Source: an uncultured Selenomonadales bacterium
Lineage (GTDB): Bacteria > Bacillota > Negativicutes > Selenomonadales > Selenomonadaceae
Direction: 5' to 3'
Assembly (NCBI GenBank): GCA_900314765.1
Contig: OMWN01000009.1
Coordinates: 1-61,087, forward strand
Length of the DNA: 61,087 nt
The position numbers were made by a program, and so were the translations under genes. The notes under the pieces were generated by a model that worked only from the letters and a program-made list of their open reading frames with translations, did no database searches and was not told where the DNA came from. Of the stretch, positions 5,008 through 13,941 are shown in pieces; within the stretch, counting starts at the first letter, position 1; each line of letters opens with the position of its first letter.

Positions 5008-6306
5008 TCAGAGGCTGCCTTTGACGGCGGCGTTGGCTGACTCTATGGACTGGTGGGCGAGGTCGATGGCGAGGCCGAGGGTACGCATGATTTTGTCTGG
5101 GTTATGGAATCCCATGCCGTTTTCTGCGGCGACCCAATCCCAGTACCACTGCGCTTCGCGGACTTTGTTGCGGGCGTCGACGAGCTGCGCGTCGCTCGCG
5201 CCGGCGGCCATCGCGGCCTGTATCGTCTTGTGCGCTTTCGCGACGGTCTGACCTGCTATGCGCTGGAGTTTGAACGTGTTGTCGTGGATGGTCTTGACGC
5301 GGGAAATGAGCGTTTCCTTGTCCTCGTCATGGCACTTGAGGCAGGACTCCTCGACGGTGAGGAGCGGGCTCGTCATCCAGTGCGACGTGTATTTCTTGCC
5401 GCCGTCGCGCATATACGGCATGTGGCAATCGACGCAGGTGACGCCGGCGTCAGCGTGGACGCTCGTCGACCATGTCTCGAAATCCGGATGCTGCGCTTTG
5501 AGCATGGACGCCTTGGAGTCGGCATGCGTCCAGTCCTGCGTGAATCCTTTTGCGAGCCCCGACTGGTAGTACTGGTACTCGCTCTCAGCGTCGAGGCCGA
5601 GGTCGTACGGCAGAACTACGCGGCCGTCTTCCTTCGCGAAGTAGTACTCGGTGTGGCACTGGCCGCAGACGTAGGCGCGCATCTCGTTGTGCGTTGCGTC
5701 GCCGATGTTCTTGCCCTGGCGGGCGAGCGCCTCGACGAATGCCTGGTTGTAGACGCGGAGTTCCATCGTCTCTGGGTCATGGCACGTAGAGCAGCCGAAC
5801 CACTGGTCGTCAGTGATAGGTGCCGCTACTTCCTCGAACGGCTTCGATGCAAATGCCCAGCCGCCTTCCTTGAAATAGACGTCGTACATGTACGAGCCCT
5901 TGCAGACGATGCAGCTGCCTTTCTGGCCCGGCAGGCGCTTCGTGTGCAGGATGTCGTAGCCCGCATAGGTGTGCCCGCGGTCATCGTCGTACTGGAGCGC
6001 GAATTTGTATCCGTTGAAATTCGTGAGCATCTCAGGCTGTGTCTTGAGGTGCGAGAGACCCTCCTTGCTTCCGCCGTAGCCGGTCGGGGTCATGTTGCCC
6101 TCGTTGTTTTTCATGAATGAATTGTACTGGAGCGGGTAGGCGTCCTTGTAGGCGTCCTTGCCGACCTGAGCGTTGCCCTCGGTCGGAATTTTTGCGAGCT
6201 TCACGGTGTCCCTCGGCTGCGCGACTCCGATGCGGATCACTATGAGGCCGAAGAATATGACGCACAAAGCGACGACTCCGACAAGATATTTCTGTATCTT
6301 ACTCAA
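5008..6306 (-). CDS. nrfA: Ammonia-forming cytochrome c nitrite reductase, catalytic subunit
   Basis: The 432-residue pentaheme enzyme reduces nitrite to ammonium with six electrons at the outer face of the cytoplasmic membrane. Visible haem sites: the diagnostic active-site CIVCK at residues 132-136 (lysine instead of histidine), CSTCH 172-176, CGQCH 214-218, CVDCH 291-295 and CLKCH 322-326. Residues 8-28 form a hydrophobic signal or anchor segment with no cleavage site that I can place confidently. The start is a TTG overlapping the end of nrfH by 8 nt. NrfH passes menaquinol electrons to it. It ends a crp-ccm-nrf operon that supplies its own haem-attachment machinery, so this is dissimilatory nitrite ammonification or nitrite detoxification. 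Confidence 0.96.
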   Translation of the reverse strand: MSKIQKYLVGVVALCVIFFGLIVIRIGVAQPRDTVKLAKIPTEGNAQVGKDAYKDAYPLQYNSFMKNNEGNMTPTGYGGSKEGLSHLKTQPEMLTNFNGYKFALQYDDDRGHTYAGYDILHTKRLPGQKGSCIVCKGSYMYDVYFKEGGWAFASKPFEEVAAPITDDQWFGCSTCHDPETMELRVYNQAFVEALARQGKNIGDATHNEMRAYVCGQCHTEYYFAKEDGRVVLPYDLGLDAESEYQYYQSGLAKGFTQDWTHADSKASMLKAQHPDFETWSTSVHADAGVTCVDCHMPYMRDGGKKYTSHWMTSPLLTVEESCLKCHDEDKETLISRVKTIHDNTFKLQRIAGQTVAKAHKTIQAAMAAGASDAQLVDARNKVREAQWYWDWVAAENGMGFHNPDKIMRTLGLAIDLAHQSIESANAAVKGSL

Positions 6307-6778
6307 TCTTTATCCCTCCCTCAAGGTGATTCGAACCATGCGCTATCCTGCTGTGGCATTTGAGGCAGTCCTTTTCGGTGCCCATCGGGCCATTGCTGAC
6401 GTTTTCCATCGTCTGCGAGTGGCACCTCAGACAGTTCGCATTGACTGTGTCTCTTGCGCTCTTTGACATCTTGATCTTTGCGGGGTAGTCACGCATGATT
6501 TCGTGGTACATGTCGACCATGCCCGTGCGGCCCTTTTCCACGTAGTACACGGCCATGCTCGTGTGTGGCAGGTGGCACTCGACGCAGTCCAGATTTTTGT
6601 GGCTCGACTCGGCGAACGTGGCCTGTTCCATTTTCATCGAATGGCAGGAGCCGCAGAACGTGGGCGTGCTGGAGAGTGCGCTCATGCCAGCGCCCGCGCC
6701 GCAGGCGATGACACCGACGATGAATCCGCCGATGACACATTTGAGCGTGTGCTCCGTGACAAGTTTTTTGATGTCCAA
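6299..6778 (-). CDS. nrfH: NrfH, membrane tetrahaem cytochrome c quinol dehydrogenase
   Basis: A 159-residue NapC/NirT-family protein that oxidises menaquinol and feeds NrfA. One N-terminal membrane anchor (about residues 14-34) is followed by four haem motifs: CGSCH, CVECH, CLRCH and CLKCH. The start is TTG at 6778 with GGAGGG upstream on the minus strand. The end overlaps nrfA, which fits translational coupling of a complex-forming pair. Confidence 0.94.
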   Translation of the reverse strand: MDIKKLVTEHTLKCVIGGFIVGVIACGAGAGMSALSSTPTFCGSCHSMKMEQATFAESSHKNLDCVECHLPHTSMAVYYVEKGRTGMVDMYHEIMRDYPAKIKMSKSARDTVNANCLRCHSQTMENVSNGPMGTEKDCLKCHSRIAHGSNHLEGGIKIE

Positions 6779-6814: not shown

Positions 6815-8734
6815 TTATTCGCGGCATGCCGCGATGAAGCTGCCAACCGTGACAATGGCGCATGCGCACCAGAGCATCCATATCATGGGCTTCGTGCTGA
6901 CCGTCGCGCGCACCGGGGCCTTTGCCTCTTCATCCTCGCTGGGCATGACCTCGACGCGGATGCGGCGCTCGTCGTCGGCGAGACCCGTGAGCCTCATCCG
7001 CCGGCTGCCGCCTGCGAATGGTACTGGACGCGATGTGCCGCCGTCGGCCGTCACGCTGATGCTCGGTCTGACGGTCTCAACGATGTCGCCGTCCGTCACG
7101 CTGACAGACGCGGTCACAATCATCCTGACATTTTCGTCGTCCCCTTCCTTTGCCTTTATGTCTATTCCATCATAAGTGTATGCGAATTGTTCATCCATCT
7201 CGACGCGCCCGCTCTTAATGATCATCTCAGTGCGTTCTTGTTTAGCGGGCGTCGGCGCAATATATATGTCGCCCGTCGCCGTGCGAATGATGGCGGGCTC
7301 CCTCGCGGCGTCCTCGCCATTGGCGTGGAGCTTCGTCACGGCCTCGGCCTCCGTGCCGTTCACGGTGTAGACGTAGCTCTTGCTCTTGCCATTTTCAGAA
7401 AATCGTTGGCCGCCATAAGTGATGTCATTTCCGAGCATCGTCACGGACTCGCCGACAGTGAGCTCCTGCGTCTCCGTGCCGCCGCCGTAGCCCGATATGA
7501 GTATGGCGATAAATCCGATGAGCACGCCGACGTGGACGATGAGGCCGCCCTTGCCAATGAATTTTTTGCTGAGGCACATCTTCGTCGCGATGACCATGAG
7601 CGCCATGATAATGATGGCGAGTGGGAGCGTCGTCCTCACGTAGAATGAGGCATCGACGGCGGCGGGCATCTCGAGGAGCTGCGTGAAAAGCGGCATCGAC
7701 ATGCCGATGAATACGATGACCGCGACGAACGCGATGAGCAGCATACCGAAGAGCGTCATGAAATCGACGCTTTTGAATGACTCATAGTAGCCATTCGTGG
7801 GAAATACGTTCGCGCGCCACGTGAGGATGATGAGGCTCGCGACGAGAATGATGCCGTCGATGGCGGCAAGCGCGAGGCCGATGCTCGAGCCGCTGAACGA
7901 GTGCACGGAAAAATCGCCGAGCACGCCGCTGCGCGCGAGGAATGTGCCGTATATGACGAGCGCGTATGTGAAAATCGCCGCGAGGTGCGCGAACAGGTTG
8001 ACACTACAGCGATGGCGCGCGAGGCCAAGCATGTGGATGAGCACGGCCGTGAGGAGCCACGGCACGAGCGACGAGTTCTCGACGGGGTCCCAGCCCCAAT
8101 AGCCGCCCCAGCCGAGGACTTTGTACGCCCAGTAGCCGCCGACGAATATGCCGGCGCCGAGGAACGCAAAGGCGATGAGCGCGGCTTTGCGCGCGGTGGC
8201 GAGCCAATCGAGATTTCTTGGCGCGTCCATGAGCTGGCCGAGTGAGTAGGAGAGCGGCACGGCGAGGAGCGCGTAGCCGATGAAAACGATGGGCGGATGG
8301 ATGGCCATCCACGGGTCCTGCAGCAGCGGATTGAGCCCGACGCCGTCGTGGAGCACCTGCGCGGCTGGCTCGAACGGGCTTTTCATGAGGACGATAACGG
8401 CAAGCAGTGCCTCGATGACGAGGTAGGCTGTGAGGCCGTGGGCGTCCATTTTATTTGTGACGGCGATGTATGCGCCGACCGCTGCGTGAATGAGGAGCCA
8501 CAGCAGGAACGAGCCCTGCTGCCCTGCCCAAAAAGCGGATATTTTGTAAATCGTGGGCAGTTTTCGCGACGAGTATGACGCGACGTATGCGACGTCGAAT
8601 TGGTTCGTGAATATGAGGTAGTAGAGATAGCCCGACGCCGCGAGAACAACGAGGAAAGTGACGCATGAAATGATTTTCAGCGCCTTCATTGTTTTTGTGG
8701 CGCTTTTATTTTGAATGTTATCGTATTTAGCCAT
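6815..8734 (-). CDS. ccmF: Cytochrome c haem lyase subunit CcmF
   Basis: A 639-residue polytopic membrane protein of the haem-handling family. The tryptophan-rich WWD signature is seen as GWGGYWGWDPVENS near residue 210, with many membrane helices before and after. A large outward-facing domain (about residues 410-600) precedes a last helix. CcmF attaches haem from CcmE to apocytochromes on the outer side of the membrane. It sits between ccmE and nrfH in the operon. The usual partners CcmH, CcmI and CcmG are not encoded here, so CcmF may act alone, as in other reduced Ccm systems. Confidence 0.93.
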   Translation of the reverse strand: MAKYDNIQNKSATKTMKALKIISCVTFLVVLAASGYLYYLIFTNQFDVAYVASYSSRKLPTIYKISAFWAGQQGSFLLWLLIHAAVGAYIAVTNKMDAHGLTAYLVIEALLAVIVLMKSPFEPAAQVLHDGVGLNPLLQDPWMAIHPPIVFIGYALLAVPLSYSLGQLMDAPRNLDWLATARKAALIAFAFLGAGIFVGGYWAYKVLGWGGYWGWDPVENSSLVPWLLTAVLIHMLGLARHRCSVNLFAHLAAIFTYALVIYGTFLARSGVLGDFSVHSFSGSSIGLALAAIDGIILVASLIILTWRANVFPTNGYYESFKSVDFMTLFGMLLIAFVAVIVFIGMSMPLFTQLLEMPAAVDASFYVRTTLPLAIIIMALMVIATKMCLSKKFIGKGGLIVHVGVLIGFIAILISGYGGGTETQELTVGESVTMLGNDITYGGQRFSENGKSKSYVYTVNGTEAEAVTKLHANGEDAAREPAIIRTATGDIYIAPTPAKQERTEMIIKSGRVEMDEQFAYTYDGIDIKAKEGDDENVRMIVTASVSVTDGDIVETVRPSISVTADGGTSRPVPFAGGSRRMRLTGLADDERRIRVEVMPSEDEEAKAPVRATVSTKPMIWMLWCACAIVTVGSFIAACRE

Positions 8735-8815: not shown

Positions 8816-9193
8816 TCATTTTTGCTTTTCGTATTTTGATGGGCACTTTATGAGGAGCTTGTCGGCGACGAATGCGTCTTTGTCATTCGCGTATGTGCCA
8901 ATGGCGACGATGTGATGCGCCTCTTTGAATCTGTCGGGCTCCTCACTGTGGTAGCGAACGGTCATCGTCTCGCCCGTTTCCTCGTCCATGAGCCCGAATA
9001 CGAAGTCGCCGCCCTCTTGGTGCGGTGGCTGCGCGGCGGGGTTTAAGAGTCCCTTGACCTGCACGCTTTGCTTCGCGGTGCGCGCCGCGGCGATGCCGAC
9101 GTACGGCGTCACGGAGTCTGTGAATGCCCAAGCCGCATAAGCGAGAAAGGCGACGATGAGCATTATAAGGTAATATTTTTTATTGAAATTCAT
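8816..9193 (-). CDS. ccmE: Haem chaperone CcmE, CxxxY type
   Basis: A 125-residue protein with one N-terminal membrane anchor (residues 7-25) and an OB-fold domain with the typical VKGLLNP..., DEETGETMTVRYH and FKEAHHIVAIGTY segments. CcmE carries haem covalently to CcmF. The classical haem-binding histidine motif (H...Y, LAKHDENY in E. coli) is replaced by LLIKCPSKYE, a CxxxY motif. This variant is known from archaea and Desulfovibrio, where it goes with loss of CcmG/H, and the same genes are missing from this operon. It is shorter than proteobacterial CcmE. Confidence 0.9.
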   Translation of the reverse strand: MNFNKKYYLIMLIVAFLAYAAWAFTDSVTPYVGIAAARTAKQSVQVKGLLNPAAQPPHQEGGDFVFGLMDEETGETMTVRYHSEEPDRFKEAHHIVAIGTYANDKDAFVADKLLIKCPSKYEKQK

Positions 9194-9199
9194 TTCGCA

Positions 9200-9823
9200 T
9201 CATCTCAAATTATTTCGTATTAGTAACCATCCATATATCATCGTGGCGTCCAGCACGGCCGCCGCGAGCACGATGACCATCGTGGAGTCCATCATGAGCC
9301 CGCCGCCGATGATGGGCGAGGGGTGAAGCGAGAAGTAGAGCCTCGGCAGTATGAAGATGAGGAACGGCATCGCGAGGCACGAGAGCAGCGAGTAGACGGC
9401 GCTCGCACGCGCGCGTTTGCGCTCGTCGTGGATGGATGCGCGGAGCGTGAGGTACGCGCCGTAGATGAGTATGAGCACGAATATCGTCGTCTGCCGTGGG
9501 TCCCAGTTCCAGTACGCGCCCCATGTTAGCTTCGAGAATATCGCGCCGCTGATGGTCGCGAGCAGGACGAACACAAACCCTATGCGGGCGGAGCGTGCGC
9601 TGATTGCGTCGCTCACCATGTCGCCGCTGCGAAGCAGGTGTATCGCCTCGATGGCGCTCACGACGAACGCGATGACCGCGACCCACGCCATCGGGATGTG
9701 GAAATATATCACACGCACGAGATAGCCAAGCCCCTCAGCGGGCGGCACGATGAAAAATACAGCACCGATTACGGCAATCGTGAATATAATTGTAACAATC
9801 AACCATTTAGTGGATTTCGTCAA
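9200..9823 (-). CDS. ccmC: Haem exporter membrane protein CcmC
   Basis: A 207-residue, six-helix membrane protein of the haem-handling family. It has the WWD motif WGAYWNWDPRQT and the YFHIPMAWVA segment bearing a haem-ligand histidine. CcmC loads haem onto CcmE. The start is TTG at 9823 with a GAGG site upstream. The ccmE start lies 7 nt after its stop. An R1 repeat separates it from ccmB, an odd interruption of an otherwise tight operon. Confidence 0.93.
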   Translation of the reverse strand: MTKSTKWLIVTIIFTIAVIGAVFFIVPPAEGLGYLVRVIYFHIPMAWVAVIAFVVSAIEAIHLLRSGDMVSDAISARSARIGFVFVLLATISGAIFSKLTWGAYWNWDPRQTTIFVLILIYGAYLTLRASIHDERKRARASAVYSLLSCLAMPFLIFILPRLYFSLHPSPIIGGGLMMDSTMVIVLAAAVLDATMIYGWLLIRNNLR

Positions 9824-9877: not shown

Positions 9878-10135
9878 CCCTCTCCGCCCCTGCGGGGCAC
9901 CTCCCCCAGAGTGGGAGGCATAGGATGAGAGTCTTTTCGTTTAAAATTTAACGATGGAATCGAATATGTTACACTTTCATTAGCTGACTATTTTGCTACT
10001 TGGAAAGCTTCATACGTTCATACGTAGATTTTTGACTAGTGTAAATAATCACAGCACCTGTAACGCCAGCCTCCCCAATGGGGGGCAAACATGCCAGTGG
10101 CATGTTTGCGCGAGCGAATGCGAGGCGGAGAGGGT
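9878..10135 (+). repeat. R1 element copy 1 (forward, long-tip variant), between ccmB and ccmC
   Basis: 258 bp bounded by CCCTCTCCGCC and GGCGGAGAGGG. The left part carries CCCCTGCGGGG and the CTCCCCC.GTGGGAG palindrome. The right part carries GCCAGCCTCCCCAATGGGG, then the alternative tip with GCAAACATGCC/GGCATGTTTGC (11-bp stem). It lies inside the minus-strand ccm operon, so it is transcribed. The remainder of the 9824-10206 gap shows nothing else. Confidence 0.85.
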
Positions 10136-10206: not shown

Positions 10207-10887
10207 TTACTCGCCGCTCTCCTCATACCAGAGGAAATCGAAAAGCATGGAGGCCGCGACGGTGATGAGCAAATCGTATATGAGCATGGCGCCGAGGTAT
10301 TTGACGCTCGCGGCGTCGCCGCCGAATGAGAAAGCGGTGAGCGCGATGGCGGGCAAAAATACCGGCAGTATCACGGGCAGCATGAGTATCGAGAAAAGGC
10401 CGCCGCCCTTGCCGTCTGTCGCCATCATGATGGCGGCCGTGAGCGTGCCCGCTGAGGCGATGCCCCATACGCCGAGCACGATTGATATGATAAATATCAG
10501 TGTTTCTGATACGCTGATGCCAATGAATATAATGAAGAGCGGCACGGTGAAAAGCGACATCACGATGAGGAGAATGAGCGTGTAAAAGAATTTGCCAAAC
10601 AGCACAGCGCTCGCCGAGCCGTAAATCCTCAGTGCAAGGAGTGTGCCGCTCGCCGACTCCGACGTGAATATGTTGCCGACGCCCGCCATCGACGAGAAGA
10701 ACAGGATGACCCAGAGCAGTGCGGCGGATATGGTGGGCGAGGGGATAGCACCGCGCAGTGCGAGGCTCACGGCCGAGAGCGTGACGAGCGCGAACATGAG
10801 CATCGTTGCCCACGATGAGCGGTCACGCAGCGACGTGACGAGCTCTTTTTTCAGCACGAGGCTAATCTGCGTGAAGCTCGATGACAT
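10207..10887 (-). CDS. ccmB: Haem exporter ABC permease CcmB
   Basis: A 226-residue protein with about six membrane helices, starting MSSSFTQISLVLKKELVTSL. The N-terminal pattern 'KELxxxLRDRSSW' and the multi-helix layout are those of CcmB, the membrane partner of CcmA. Together they power release of holo-CcmE. The frame is open further upstream inside ccmA, but the ATG at 10887 gives the family-length protein and overlaps ccmA by 26 nt, so I chose it. Confidence 0.9.
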   Translation of the reverse strand: MSSSFTQISLVLKKELVTSLRDRSSWATMLMFALVTLSAVSLALRGAIPSPTISAALLWVILFFSSMAGVGNIFTSESASGTLLALRIYGSASAVLFGKFFYTLILLIVMSLFTVPLFIIFIGISVSETLIFIISIVLGVWGIASAGTLTAAIMMATDGKGGGLFSILMLPVILPVFLPAIALTAFSFGGDAASVKYLGAMLIYDLLITVAASMLFDFLWYEESGE

Positions 10888-11488
10888 CGTCTGCCGCCTC
10901 GCTTTCTTTCTTGTCGTTCGTCGCCCAGAGGACGATGGCACCGCCTGCCGAGGCCTCCCACGCCTCGCGCATGACCATCTTTCGGCCTTTTTCGTCGAGC
11001 CCGAGCGTTGGCTCGTCGAGGAGCCACACGGGTGCTGCCGCCGCAATCATCATGGCGACCTTCAGCCTTTGCCTCATGCCCGTCGAGAATGTATCTATGC
11101 GCTTGCTCAATGCGTCGATGGGGAGCCCCACTTTATCGAAAAGTTTCTTTATATCATTATCTGACAGCGATTTGCCGCGAAGGCCGACGAAAAACGAGAG
11201 ATTTTCGCGCGCCGTGAGCCGCGTGTAGAGCGCCATTTCGGGTGTCGTCATGGCGACGGCGCCGATGTATGCGCCGCGCGTGAGTGGTTTATTATCAGAT
11301 GTTATCGTCACGCGCCCGCTTGTCGGCATTGTGAGATGCGCCGCGAGGCGCAGGAGCGTCGATTTGCCGCTGCCGTTCGCGCCTGTGATGGCGGTGATGG
11401 TGCTCGGCTCGAATGTGTGAGTGAAATCCTTTATGAGCTCTTTTGCGCCGAAGCGCATGCCGACGCTTTCAAATGATAGCTTCATCAT
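10862..11488 (-). CDS. ccmA: Haem exporter ATP-binding protein CcmA
   Basis: A 208-residue ABC ATPase: Walker A GANGSGKST, signature segment FSTGMRQRLKVAM, Walker B VWLLDEPTLGLD, switch residue region VLWATND. It hydrolyses ATP for the CcmAB complex during haem delivery. The ATG overlaps the end of the regulator gene by 4 nt, and its 3' end overlaps ccmB by 26 nt. The three genes are probably translated as a coupled set. Confidence 0.92.
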   Translation of the reverse strand: MMKLSFESVGMRFGAKELIKDFTHTFEPSTITAITGANGSGKSTLLRLAAHLTMPTSGRVTITSDNKPLTRGAYIGAVAMTTPEMALYTRLTARENLSFFVGLRGKSLSDNDIKKLFDKVGLPIDALSKRIDTFSTGMRQRLKVAMMIAAAAPVWLLDEPTLGLDEKGRKMVMREAWEASAGGAIVLWATNDKKESEAADDVIELHAD

Positions 11489-12228
11489 GGCTTTTCGCCT
11501 TTGCTTTTGTCGCTCGCATTGTTGCGCTTTTCAAATACGAATGGCGCGAGGCCGATCGCTTTTTTGTTGAGCGTGAGCCAATCGTCCTCACCATCGAGCA
11601 GTCCTTCGCGCTTCATCGCGGTGATCTCGCGCGTGAGAGCGCTTCTGTTGCAGTCGAGCTCCTGTGCGAGCCTCACGCGCCCTGGCACATCGACGTGGCC
11701 GTTTTTGCCGCTCTGCCGTTTTTCGCGCTGCAGGAGATAGACGATGAGCCTTTCGCGGAGCGTTTTCTGCGACAAAAGCTCAATTTTCTCCGTCAGCGTG
11801 ACATTTTTCGTCGAGAATGACTCAAGAAGGTGCATCATCACGATGCCGTGGATGCGGCCGAGCCTCACGCCCGACGTCAGCAGCGCCCTGAACGGTATCC
11901 AGAGCACGAGCACATCCGCGAGCGCGTCGATGGAGCTGATGTTGTACTGCGTGTCAGAGAGCACAGCCGACGTCGCGCCGATGAGCTCGCCGCGCCCGAG
12001 CGTGTGGCTCACGGACTCCTTGCCCCAGCAGTCCTCCGTGACGGTCTCGGCGCGCCCCTCTATGATGAGGCCGATGCTCGCGTTCTCAGCGTATGCCGAG
12101 AGCACGCGCTCGCCTCGCGCGTAGCGGCGAATGACGGCGCCGACCGCCTCGACGAATTTCTCAATCTCGGCGGGCTTCAGTCCCGCGAAAAGCGGCATCT
12201 CATGGAGCTTCAGATTAAGCACCTGCAC
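11485..12228 (-). CDS. Crp/Fnr-family transcription regulator of the ccm-nrf operon
   Basis: 247 residues: an N-terminal cyclic-nucleotide-fold sensor (about 5-120), a long dimerisation helix, and a C-terminal winged helix with recognition-helix text RVRLAQELDCNRSALTREITAM. No N-terminal cysteine cluster for an FeS centre is present (the few cysteines are scattered), so it is not a canonical FNR. The signal could be nitrite/NO, haem or redox. The start is GTG at 12228 with AGGAGG upstream. It heads the operon and has a palindrome at about -41.5 from the predicted start of transcription, suggesting it activates its own operon. Confidence 0.85.
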   Translation of the reverse strand: MQVLNLKLHEMPLFAGLKPAEIEKFVEAVGAVIRRYARGERVLSAYAENASIGLIIEGRAETVTEDCWGKESVSHTLGRGELIGATSAVLSDTQYNISSIDALADVLVLWIPFRALLTSGVRLGRIHGIVMMHLLESFSTKNVTLTEKIELLSQKTLRERLIVYLLQREKRQSGKNGHVDVPGRVRLAQELDCNRSALTREITAMKREGLLDGEDDWLTLNKKAIGLAPFVFEKRNNASDKSKGEKP

Positions 12229-12271
12229 TCGCTACGCCTCCTAAAAAGTCCACTGACACTTTTATGGATAG

Positions 12272-12315
12272 ATTATATCATCAATAATCACATGCGGATG
12301 TTGCCAATGCAACAT
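12272..12315 (-). promoter_or_regulatory. Promoter of the crp-ccm-nrf operon with a class II activator palindrome
   Basis: On the minus strand a perfect TATAAT occupies 12277-12272. No -35 match is seen at the right distance. Instead there is a palindrome ATGTTGC-N4-GCAACAT (12298-12315), the TTGN-N4-NCAA geometry of Crp/Fnr sites. With transcription starting near 12265, the palindrome centre lies at about -41.5, the standard position of a class II activator. A weak -35 plus a site here implies activator dependence, most simply on the first gene product. Confidence 0.6.
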
Positions 12316-12359: not shown

Positions 12360-12612
12360 CCCTCTCCGCCTCGCATTCGCTCGGCACCTCCCCCAGAGTG
12401 GGAGGCTGGCGTTACAGATTCTGAGATTATTTACATTAGTTGAATCGATTCATTAGGAAAAATGTAATTGCACATCTTAATTGAAAGTGAAAGTGCGTAG
12501 CTTGCTGCCTGTAAAGTTAGAGATTATCGTTTACTTTCAATTATATCGTGAAGCATCGCTTTCGCTATGCCTCCCACTCTGGGGGAGGTGGCCCCGCAGG
12601 GGCCGGAGAGGG
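12360..12612 (-). repeat. R1 element copy 2 (reverse orientation, short tip)
   Basis: 253 bp. Its left end begins CCCTCTCCGCCTCGCATTCG (the 'right' tip of forward copies), and its right end is GGCCCCGCAGGGGCC with GGAGAGGG. It lies between the divergent crp operon and sbcDC. The other parts of 12316-12747 hold only AT-rich spacer and a weak -10 (TATACT, 12705-12710) ahead of sbcD. Confidence 0.85.
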
Positions 12613-12747: not shown

Positions 12748-13941
12748 GTGAAATTTCTTCATTTGGCAGACCTTCATCTCGGCAAGGAAGTGCGCGAGAT
12801 ACGCATGACGGACGACCAGCGCGATTTTTTGATGAATACGGTGCTGCCCGTCGTGGATGAGCGCAAAGTCGACGCCGTCGTCATCGCGGGCGATGTCTAC
12901 GACCAGAGCGTGCCCGAGGAAAATGCGGTGACGCTTTTCAGCGATTTCCTCGCGGCACTCGCAGAGAGGGGCGTCGAGACGCTCATCATCAATGGCAATC
13001 ACGACTCGGCAAAGCGGCTCGCGTTCGCGCAGTCGCTTCTCGCGTTCGCGCATGTGCACATCGTGAGCCGCTGCACGGGCGCGCTCGAGTCTTTCACGAT
13101 GAATGACGAGCACGGGCCTGTCAATTTTTATTTTCTGCCGTTCTTCCATCGCGTTGATATCGCATCTATTTATAAGGAAGAAAAAATCGCGACAATAGAA
13201 GACGCTGTCGCCGCCGTGCTCGCGCGCGCGCCCATCAACACGGCAGAGCGCAACGTCATCATCGCGCATCTTTTCGTGACGGCGGGCGGCGTCGAGCCAG
13301 AGAAAGCGGGCTCAGAGCGCATATCGGAGAGCCTCGGAACGATAGAGCGTGTGCCGTCGAGCCTTTTTGACGATTTCGACTACGTTGCGCTCGGTCACAT
13401 CCATCGCGCACAGAAAGTCGGGCGCGAGACGTGCCGATACGCGGGCTCGCCGCTCCGCTATTCGCTCGGCGAGGTTGAGGCGCTAGACGGCGTGCCGTAT
13501 GCGAAGACGATGGCGCTCGTGACGATGGGCGCGAAGGGTGACATCAGCGTCGAGAAAATCCCCATAAAGCCGACGCACGAGATGATTCACTACACCGACA
13601 CGTTTGACAACATCATCGCGCGCGGGCAGAAAATCATCGACGATGACCCCGCAAGCGAGCCATCCAAGGACTACATCTATGCGACGCTGACGGACAAGGA
13701 CACCGTCATAAACGCTATGTCAAGGCTACGGCGCGTCTATCCGAATGCGATGAGCCTCAGATACGCGCCGAGGGGTCGCGCGAAGGAGACGGCGACATCG
13801 TTAAGTGTTGAGGCGAAAAGGACGTTTGAGGAAATCATCGATGATTTCTACCGCGAGAAGCACGACAAAGACGACAAGATGAGCGACGAGGAATTCAAGA
13901 TTTTATATGACGCAGCGAGAGAGGCAGGTATCATCGAATGA
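12748..13941 (+). CDS. sbcD: SbcD (Mre11-type) nuclease subunit
   Basis: A 397-residue metallophosphoesterase of the SbcCD complex, which cuts DNA hairpins and processes blocked DNA ends. Metal-binding motifs in order: HLADLHLG near the start, VIAGDVYD, INGNHDS, and later HLFVTAGG and LGHIHR. It starts at GTG 12748 behind GAGGGGG. The ATGA overlap with sbcC shows translational coupling. The window is rich in inverted-repeat elements, the kind of hairpin DNA this nuclease acts on. That link is only an inference. Confidence 0.95.
   Translation: MKFLHLADLHLGKEVREIRMTDDQRDFLMNTVLPVVDERKVDAVVIAGDVYDQSVPEENAVTLFSDFLAALAERGVETLIINGNHDSAKRLAFAQSLLAFAHVHIVSRCTGALESFTMNDEHGPVNFYFLPFFHRVDIASIYKEEKIATIEDAVAAVLARAPINTAERNVIIAHLFVTAGGVEPEKAGSERISESLGTIERVPSSLFDDFDYVALGHIHRAQKVGRETCRYAGSPLRYSLGEVEALDGVPYAKTMALVTMGAKGDISVEKIPIKPTHEMIHYTDTFDNIIARGQKIIDDDPASEPSKDYIYATLTDKDTVINAMSRLRRVYPNAMSLRYAPRGRAKETATSLSVEAKRTFEEIIDDFYREKHDKDDKMSDEEFKILYDAAREAGIIE

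Follow-up and report, generated by a model that had tools for sequence, protein, structure and literature searches.

A perfect palindrome in a 61,087-nucleotide stretch of DNA from an uncultured Selenomonadales bacterium (contig OMWN01000009.1; the whole stretch is called the window) is, with good confidence, the operator of the Crp/Fnr-family protein encoded by its own operon. By this reading of sequence and conservation, the protein would resemble HcpR, control its own gene and act as a class II activator reserved for cytochrome c maturation (ccm) and nitrite reductase (nrf) genes. The palindrome, ATGTTGC-N4-GCAACAT at 12298-12315 (ATGTTGCCAATGCAACAT; central nucleotides CAAT), is a 7-4-7 inverted repeat with 0 mismatches and with the Crp/Fnr-type spacing that a first-pass annotation of this DNA had pointed out. 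The genome search for the 18-bp palindrome proposed there returned one exact match across the 2.33 Mb of the genome (2,326,076 bases), the runners-up having 2 mismatches; within the window no other match had fewer than 3 mismatches. The palindrome core and a TATAAT hexamer make up a module, GTTGC-N4-GCAAC-N22-TATAAT, whose 16 fixed bases are expected by chance about 0.001 times per genome. In exact pattern searches, as used for all genome-wide site searches, this module was detected once in the window's genome and in 107/380 Negativicutes genomes, whereas the reversed-pattern control gave 0. The combination of palindrome and TATAAT is not due to chance.

Downstream of the palindrome, the regulator gene, ccmA, ccmB, ccmC, ccmE, ccmF, nrfH and nrfA follow each other on the same strand (Table 1). 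An AGGAGG sequence lies upstream of the regulator's GTG start (12228), and the divergent sbcD gene starts at 12748. The haem-binding motifs of NrfA (one CxxCK, four CxxCH) are those expected of a pentahaem nitrite reductase. The neighbourhood maps of the relatives do not include ccmB. Transcription of the operon as one unit is uncertain, because the gap of about 380 nt between ccmB and ccmC in the window's genome bears a repeat. This interspersed repeat (CCTCCCCCAGAGTGGGAGG) has 12 copies in the window (0.01 by chance), at 9900, 12387, 12570, 17277, 19242, 22566, 25622, 28923, 31728, 50930, 52847 and 58361; one copy lies inside the ccmB-ccmC gap, and two copies that converge bracket 12387-12588, within the gap between the regulator gene and sbcD. 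Further sites before nrfH, ccmC, ccmE or ccmF were sought in the window and none was convincing; the operon has one site only, and nrfHA has none of its own here. In many relatives nrfHA carries its own site.

Table 1. Features of the operon and its promoter region in the window
Feature	Position	Strand	Basis or remark
Operator (candidate), palindrome ATGTTGC-N4-GCAACAT	12298..12315	.	centre 12306.5 (-41.5); sequence and conservation in orthologues
Extended -10 TGATATAAT	12272..12280	-	TATAAT at 12277-12272; spacing to palindrome fixed among relatives
Predicted transcription start	12265..12265	-	inferred from -10, unmapped
Crp/Fnr-family regulator, 247 aa, GTG start	11485..12228	-	Pfam cNMP_binding, orthologues, Crp/Fnr fold of model
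Recognition helix CNRSALTRE codons (residues 193-201)	11626..11652	-	alignment to CRP
ccmA (ABC ATPase)	10862..11488	-	conserved beside regulator
ccmB	10207..11046	-	Pfam CcmB; open frame as listed, true start probably further in
ccmC	9200..9823	-	
ccmE	8816..9193	-	
ccmF	6815..8734	-	
nrfH	6299..6778	-	four CxxCH motifs
nrfA	5008..6306	-	one CxxCK and four CxxCH motifs

Many of the 150 other family genomes sampled encode an orthologue of the regulator (43-59% identity). Genome contigs searched with an alignment query gave relatives in Selenomonas, Mitsuokella, Schwartzia, Quinella and further Selenomonadaceae; Mitsuokella jalaludinii DSM 13811 is one strain with an orthologue. For 71 Selenomonadaceae orthologues, chosen by protein only, all perfect inverted repeats of the 5-4-5 type within 250 nt upstream were tallied and compared with 200 Markov shuffles. 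The arm GTTGC occurred in 43/71 upstream regions, against 7 for the next arm and a shuffle maximum of 4 for any arm; GTTGC-N4-GCAAC is thus the dominant palindrome upstream of the regulator genes. Measured from the start of the arm, TATAAT stands at precisely 36 nt in 40 of the 46 regions in which the palindrome matches at 9/10 positions or better, and at 37 nt in 2 of them. Alignment of the 108 distinct family sites with sequence examined revealed near-random bases at the four central positions and a mostly weakly conserved 22-nt spacer. The module is followed by the regulator gene at 45 of these sites, by nrfH (nrfHA) at 39, by ccmE at 23 and by napGH-like genes at 1, and 107/108 modules lie 15-190 nt ahead of the regulator gene, nrfH or ccmE. 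In a Quinella-like genus (g13) many regulator promoters display a degenerate GTGAC-N4-(G/A)(C/T)AAC with the same spacing (read by eye), and the exact module is found before ccmE. The one other family target, the napG-/napH-like genes (G041, contig 100), lies behind a third exact module; its likeness to NapG and NapH was taken from reading the protein sequences and not from a family search. Outside Selenomonadaceae, some exact modules look unrelated or sit within genes.

On the minus strand, TATAAT begins 20 nt past the last base of the palindrome and is preceded by T12280, G12279 and A12278, giving an extended -10. No -35-like hexamer was found ahead of TATAAT, and a sigma-70 scan made no call for this promoter. 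The TG of the extended -10, which is outside the search pattern for the module, is nevertheless conserved in homologous modules (T 106/108, G 108/108). With +1 placed 7 nt downstream of the -10, the centre of the palindrome falls at -41.5 from the predicted start, the class II position that the first-pass annotation had assigned to it relative to a perfect TATAAT. Its further statement, that the palindrome replaces a missing -35, agrees with the absence of such an element but had overlooked the extended -10. E. coli CRP and FNR activate class II promoters from -41.5. The position, the absent -35, the extended -10 and the rigid spacing across three operon types together fit a class II activator. 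Alternatively, the regulator bound to the palindrome could repress, keeping its own operon off until it is released by a signal: promoters with an extended -10 can do without a -35, so that a protein covering the -35 region could block transcription, and repression has been predicted at some HcpR sites that overlap promoters (PMC545781). We consider this improbable, since the fixed class II spacing in three kinds of operon is explained by contact with RNA polymerase whereas blocking needs no such spacing, and the site has no -35 element.

Binding by the operon's own regulator is favoured by the co-occurrence of site and protein. The exact module was found in 75/85 genomes with the regulator but in 1/66 without it. 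Among nrfA-bearing genomes only, the numbers were 65/72 and 1/20 (p=5e-13), which means that the module is not simply tied to nrfA. This p-value, like the others given here, overstates independence, since the sample consists of related genomes, many of them metagenome-assembled. Ten regulator-bearing genomes have no exact module, some of them carrying degenerate sites with the same spacing. In genus g7, whose regulators fall within the same clade (support 0.94), the site precedes a lone regulator gene that has neither ccm nor nrf genes as neighbours. Genus g9 (e.g. genomes G008 and G068) has an NrfA 75-77% identical to that of the window and neither a close regulator orthologue nor an exact module, which implies that nrf is regulated otherwise there. 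The earlier proposals that the operon's own regulator binds the palindrome and that the site is autoregulatory are borne out as predictions: adjacency, co-occurrence, helix conservation and fixed spacing all point to this protein, and the putative operator precedes its gene.

Another DNA-binding protein, either a Crp/Fnr paralogue or a member of another family, might bind the palindrome, with the regulator gene being merely a member of the operon; related families do contain Crp/Fnr proteins with this type of helix, and each of these has GTTGC sites. This is very unlikely, as the module tracks the presence of the regulator within the nrfA-bearing genomes too, g7 has it ahead of nothing but the regulator gene, and the window's genome encodes a single protein matching the regulator at E <= 1e-10. 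A role as RNA hairpin or terminator was rejected and has a negligible chance of being right: the palindrome can form a 7-bp hairpin, but its minus-strand fold is no stronger than shuffles (z -0.36), a T-run is absent and a terminator scan did not report it, the arm sequence itself recurs among orthologues beyond mere pairing, and the palindrome lies upstream of the predicted start.

Alignment of the recognition helix with E. coli CRP equates R195 with R180, S196 with E181 and R200 with R185, and CNRSALTRE is near invariant among the orthologues. For Crp/Fnr sites, Rodionov et al. 2005 (PMC1274295) describe a pairing of R180 with G at position 3 and of E181 with A at position 6; HcpR2 proteins in which residue 181 is Ser or Gln have deviating motifs in the same study. 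TGTTGC keeps the G of this co-variation rule and lacks its A, in agreement with the rule. The half-site is, as first proposed, unlike those of CRP (TGTGA) and FNR (TTGAT), and Ser replaces Glu181. The proposed novelty of the specificity holds against CRP and FNR but is reduced by the deviating motifs already recorded there for Ser181 HcpR2 proteins (PMC1274295), and if GTTGCnnnnGCAAC is the HcpR motif of Clostridioides difficile, the specificity is already on record. A restriction of the half-site to this operon did not hold, because GTTGC is shared by further Crp/Fnr proteins whose recognition helix has the pattern Arg-Ser-x-x-x-Arg.

For relatives outside Selenomonadaceae, with the count confined to those sampled independently of the site, an R-S-x-x-x-R helix was accompanied by the site in 7/11 cases and other helices in 0/14 (p=7e-4, weakened by shared genera). 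Relatives with Ala or Ser at the place of R185, or Thr at that of E181, carry no such site; an adjacent site is also missing from four relatives that do share the helix (L286, L303-L305). In other Negativicutes families, two GTTGC-bearing Crp/Fnr genes (L277, L289) are divergent from Hcp-like genes. One family (f2; L274-L276, L288, L306, L311, L316) has RSALTRE-helix Crp/Fnr genes with upstream GTTGC palindromes, mostly at least 2, near permease-like genes, a related regulon with other targets. Outside the class, one exact module (L290) precedes an frdX-like ferredoxin gene and two (L291, L292) lie directly 3' of Crp/Fnr genes with RSSLSRE or RSALSRE helices. As judged from these sequences, the GTTGC specificity is a group trait and no oddity of a single operon.

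The sensor domain of the regulator matches Pfam PF00027 (cNMP_binding; 30.7 bits, cut-off 27.5). PF13545 (HTH_Crp_2) scored 22.1 bits, under its cut-off of 27 (E 1.5e-4), and the HTH helix aligns to CRP. An AlphaFold model of moderate confidence (pLDDT 77) matched Crp/Fnr structures over the whole chain, which speaks for the general fold only. C67 and C193 are the only cysteines, so the first gene encodes a Crp/Fnr protein without the FNR cysteines, as had been noted earlier. An FNR iron-sulphur oxygen sensor was rejected, since the cluster cysteines are absent; a CRP cAMP receptor was rejected as well, the contacts E72 and R82 being replaced by A85 and N96 and the half-site being TGTTG, not TGTGA. 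N49, H75, H127 and M131 are invariant across the 71 orthologues though not in more distant relatives, and are candidate signal-pocket residues. P. gingivalis HcpR senses NO through haem (PMC12750200). This and the haem-protein genes among the targets make NO, nitrite or haem the likeliest signals, and by analogy the regulator probably responds to one of them.

Taking up the site, the fixed spacing, the regulon, the co-occurrence and the helix pattern computed here, binding and activation can be pictured as follows. A regulator dimer would occupy the two GTTGC half-sites, with Arg195 (CRP Arg180) probably contacting the G, Arg200 (CRP Arg185) being retained, and Ser196 in place of Glu181 removing the usual preference for a TGA core. 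From -41.5, on a promoter with an extended -10 but no -35, the bound protein would contact RNA polymerase in class II activation, and would thereby switch on its own gene together with the ccm and nrfHA genes. Positive autoregulation would be the simplest reading because the regulator's own promoter carries the site. A wider proposal, to which we give about even chances, is that GTTGC-N4-GCAAC is read by a distinct Arg180-Ser181-Arg185 class, widespread among Negativicutes and found in further anaerobic Firmicutes. In Selenomonadaceae this class would have become a dedicated self-activating regulator of ccm and nitrite ammonification, whose clade-specific sensor (N49, H75, H127) may link nitrite reduction to haem or NO status.

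The relatives include many rumen selenomonads, and feeding nitrate has been studied as a means of lowering rumen methane (PMC4777734). A literature search found no description of the present regulator or of any regulator of rumen selenomonad nrf genes. The analysis offers a specific, testable regulator, site and regulon common to Selenomonadaceae, and the Crp/Fnr protein-DNA recognition code gains a clear case of Ser at 181 with a GTTGC half-site.

Among known regulators, NnrR, DNR and NssR likewise belong to Crp/Fnr, govern nitrogen-oxide metabolism and have N4-spaced sites, but they are proteobacterial, have different targets and differ in half-site or register (TTGcg, TTGAT, TTAAC; PMC1274295). 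E. coli CRP and FNR share the superfamily, helix position and spacing, and differ in their half-sites (TGTGA/TTGAT) and in Glu181 (Ser here); the present protein has neither the CRP residues E72 and R82 that contact cAMP nor the cysteines of FNR. CooA gives class II-type activation. Its palindrome TGTCGGCNNGCCGACA has the half-site TGTCG, one base off TGTTG and in the same register (PMC545781); in contrast to the predicted regulon here, CooA is CO-responsive and regulates coo genes, and orthology was unsupported by the searches run. HcpR and HcpR2, described in PMC1274295 as Crp/Fnr regulators of hcp and frdX, come closest. Like the present regulator they have no FNR cysteines (PMC1274295; P. 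gingivalis HcpR, PMC12750200), and their targets include nitrogen-oxide genes, with nrfHA in Geobacter and Desulfuromonas (PMC1274295). The HcpR2 site GTAACnnnnGTTAC given there is an N4-spaced palindrome whose G, T and C agree in position with those of the window's site, and two Clostridium HcpR2 proteins, those of C. difficile and C. thermocellum, have Ser181; HcpR2 proteins in that account differ in the half-site (GTAAC versus GTTGC) and mostly have Pro at 181 where Ser is found here. P. gingivalis HcpR uses Met68 as haem ligand (PMC12750200). HcpR2 targets hcp and the present module ccm/nrf: the hcp of the window's genome, which an HcpR would control or adjoin, lies on another contig, and the short stretch examined upstream of it showed no GTTGC palindrome. 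We make no claim of HcpR membership because this defining target is outside the regulon as far as tested; the best reading of the regulator is a Selenomonadaceae member of the HcpR-like group.
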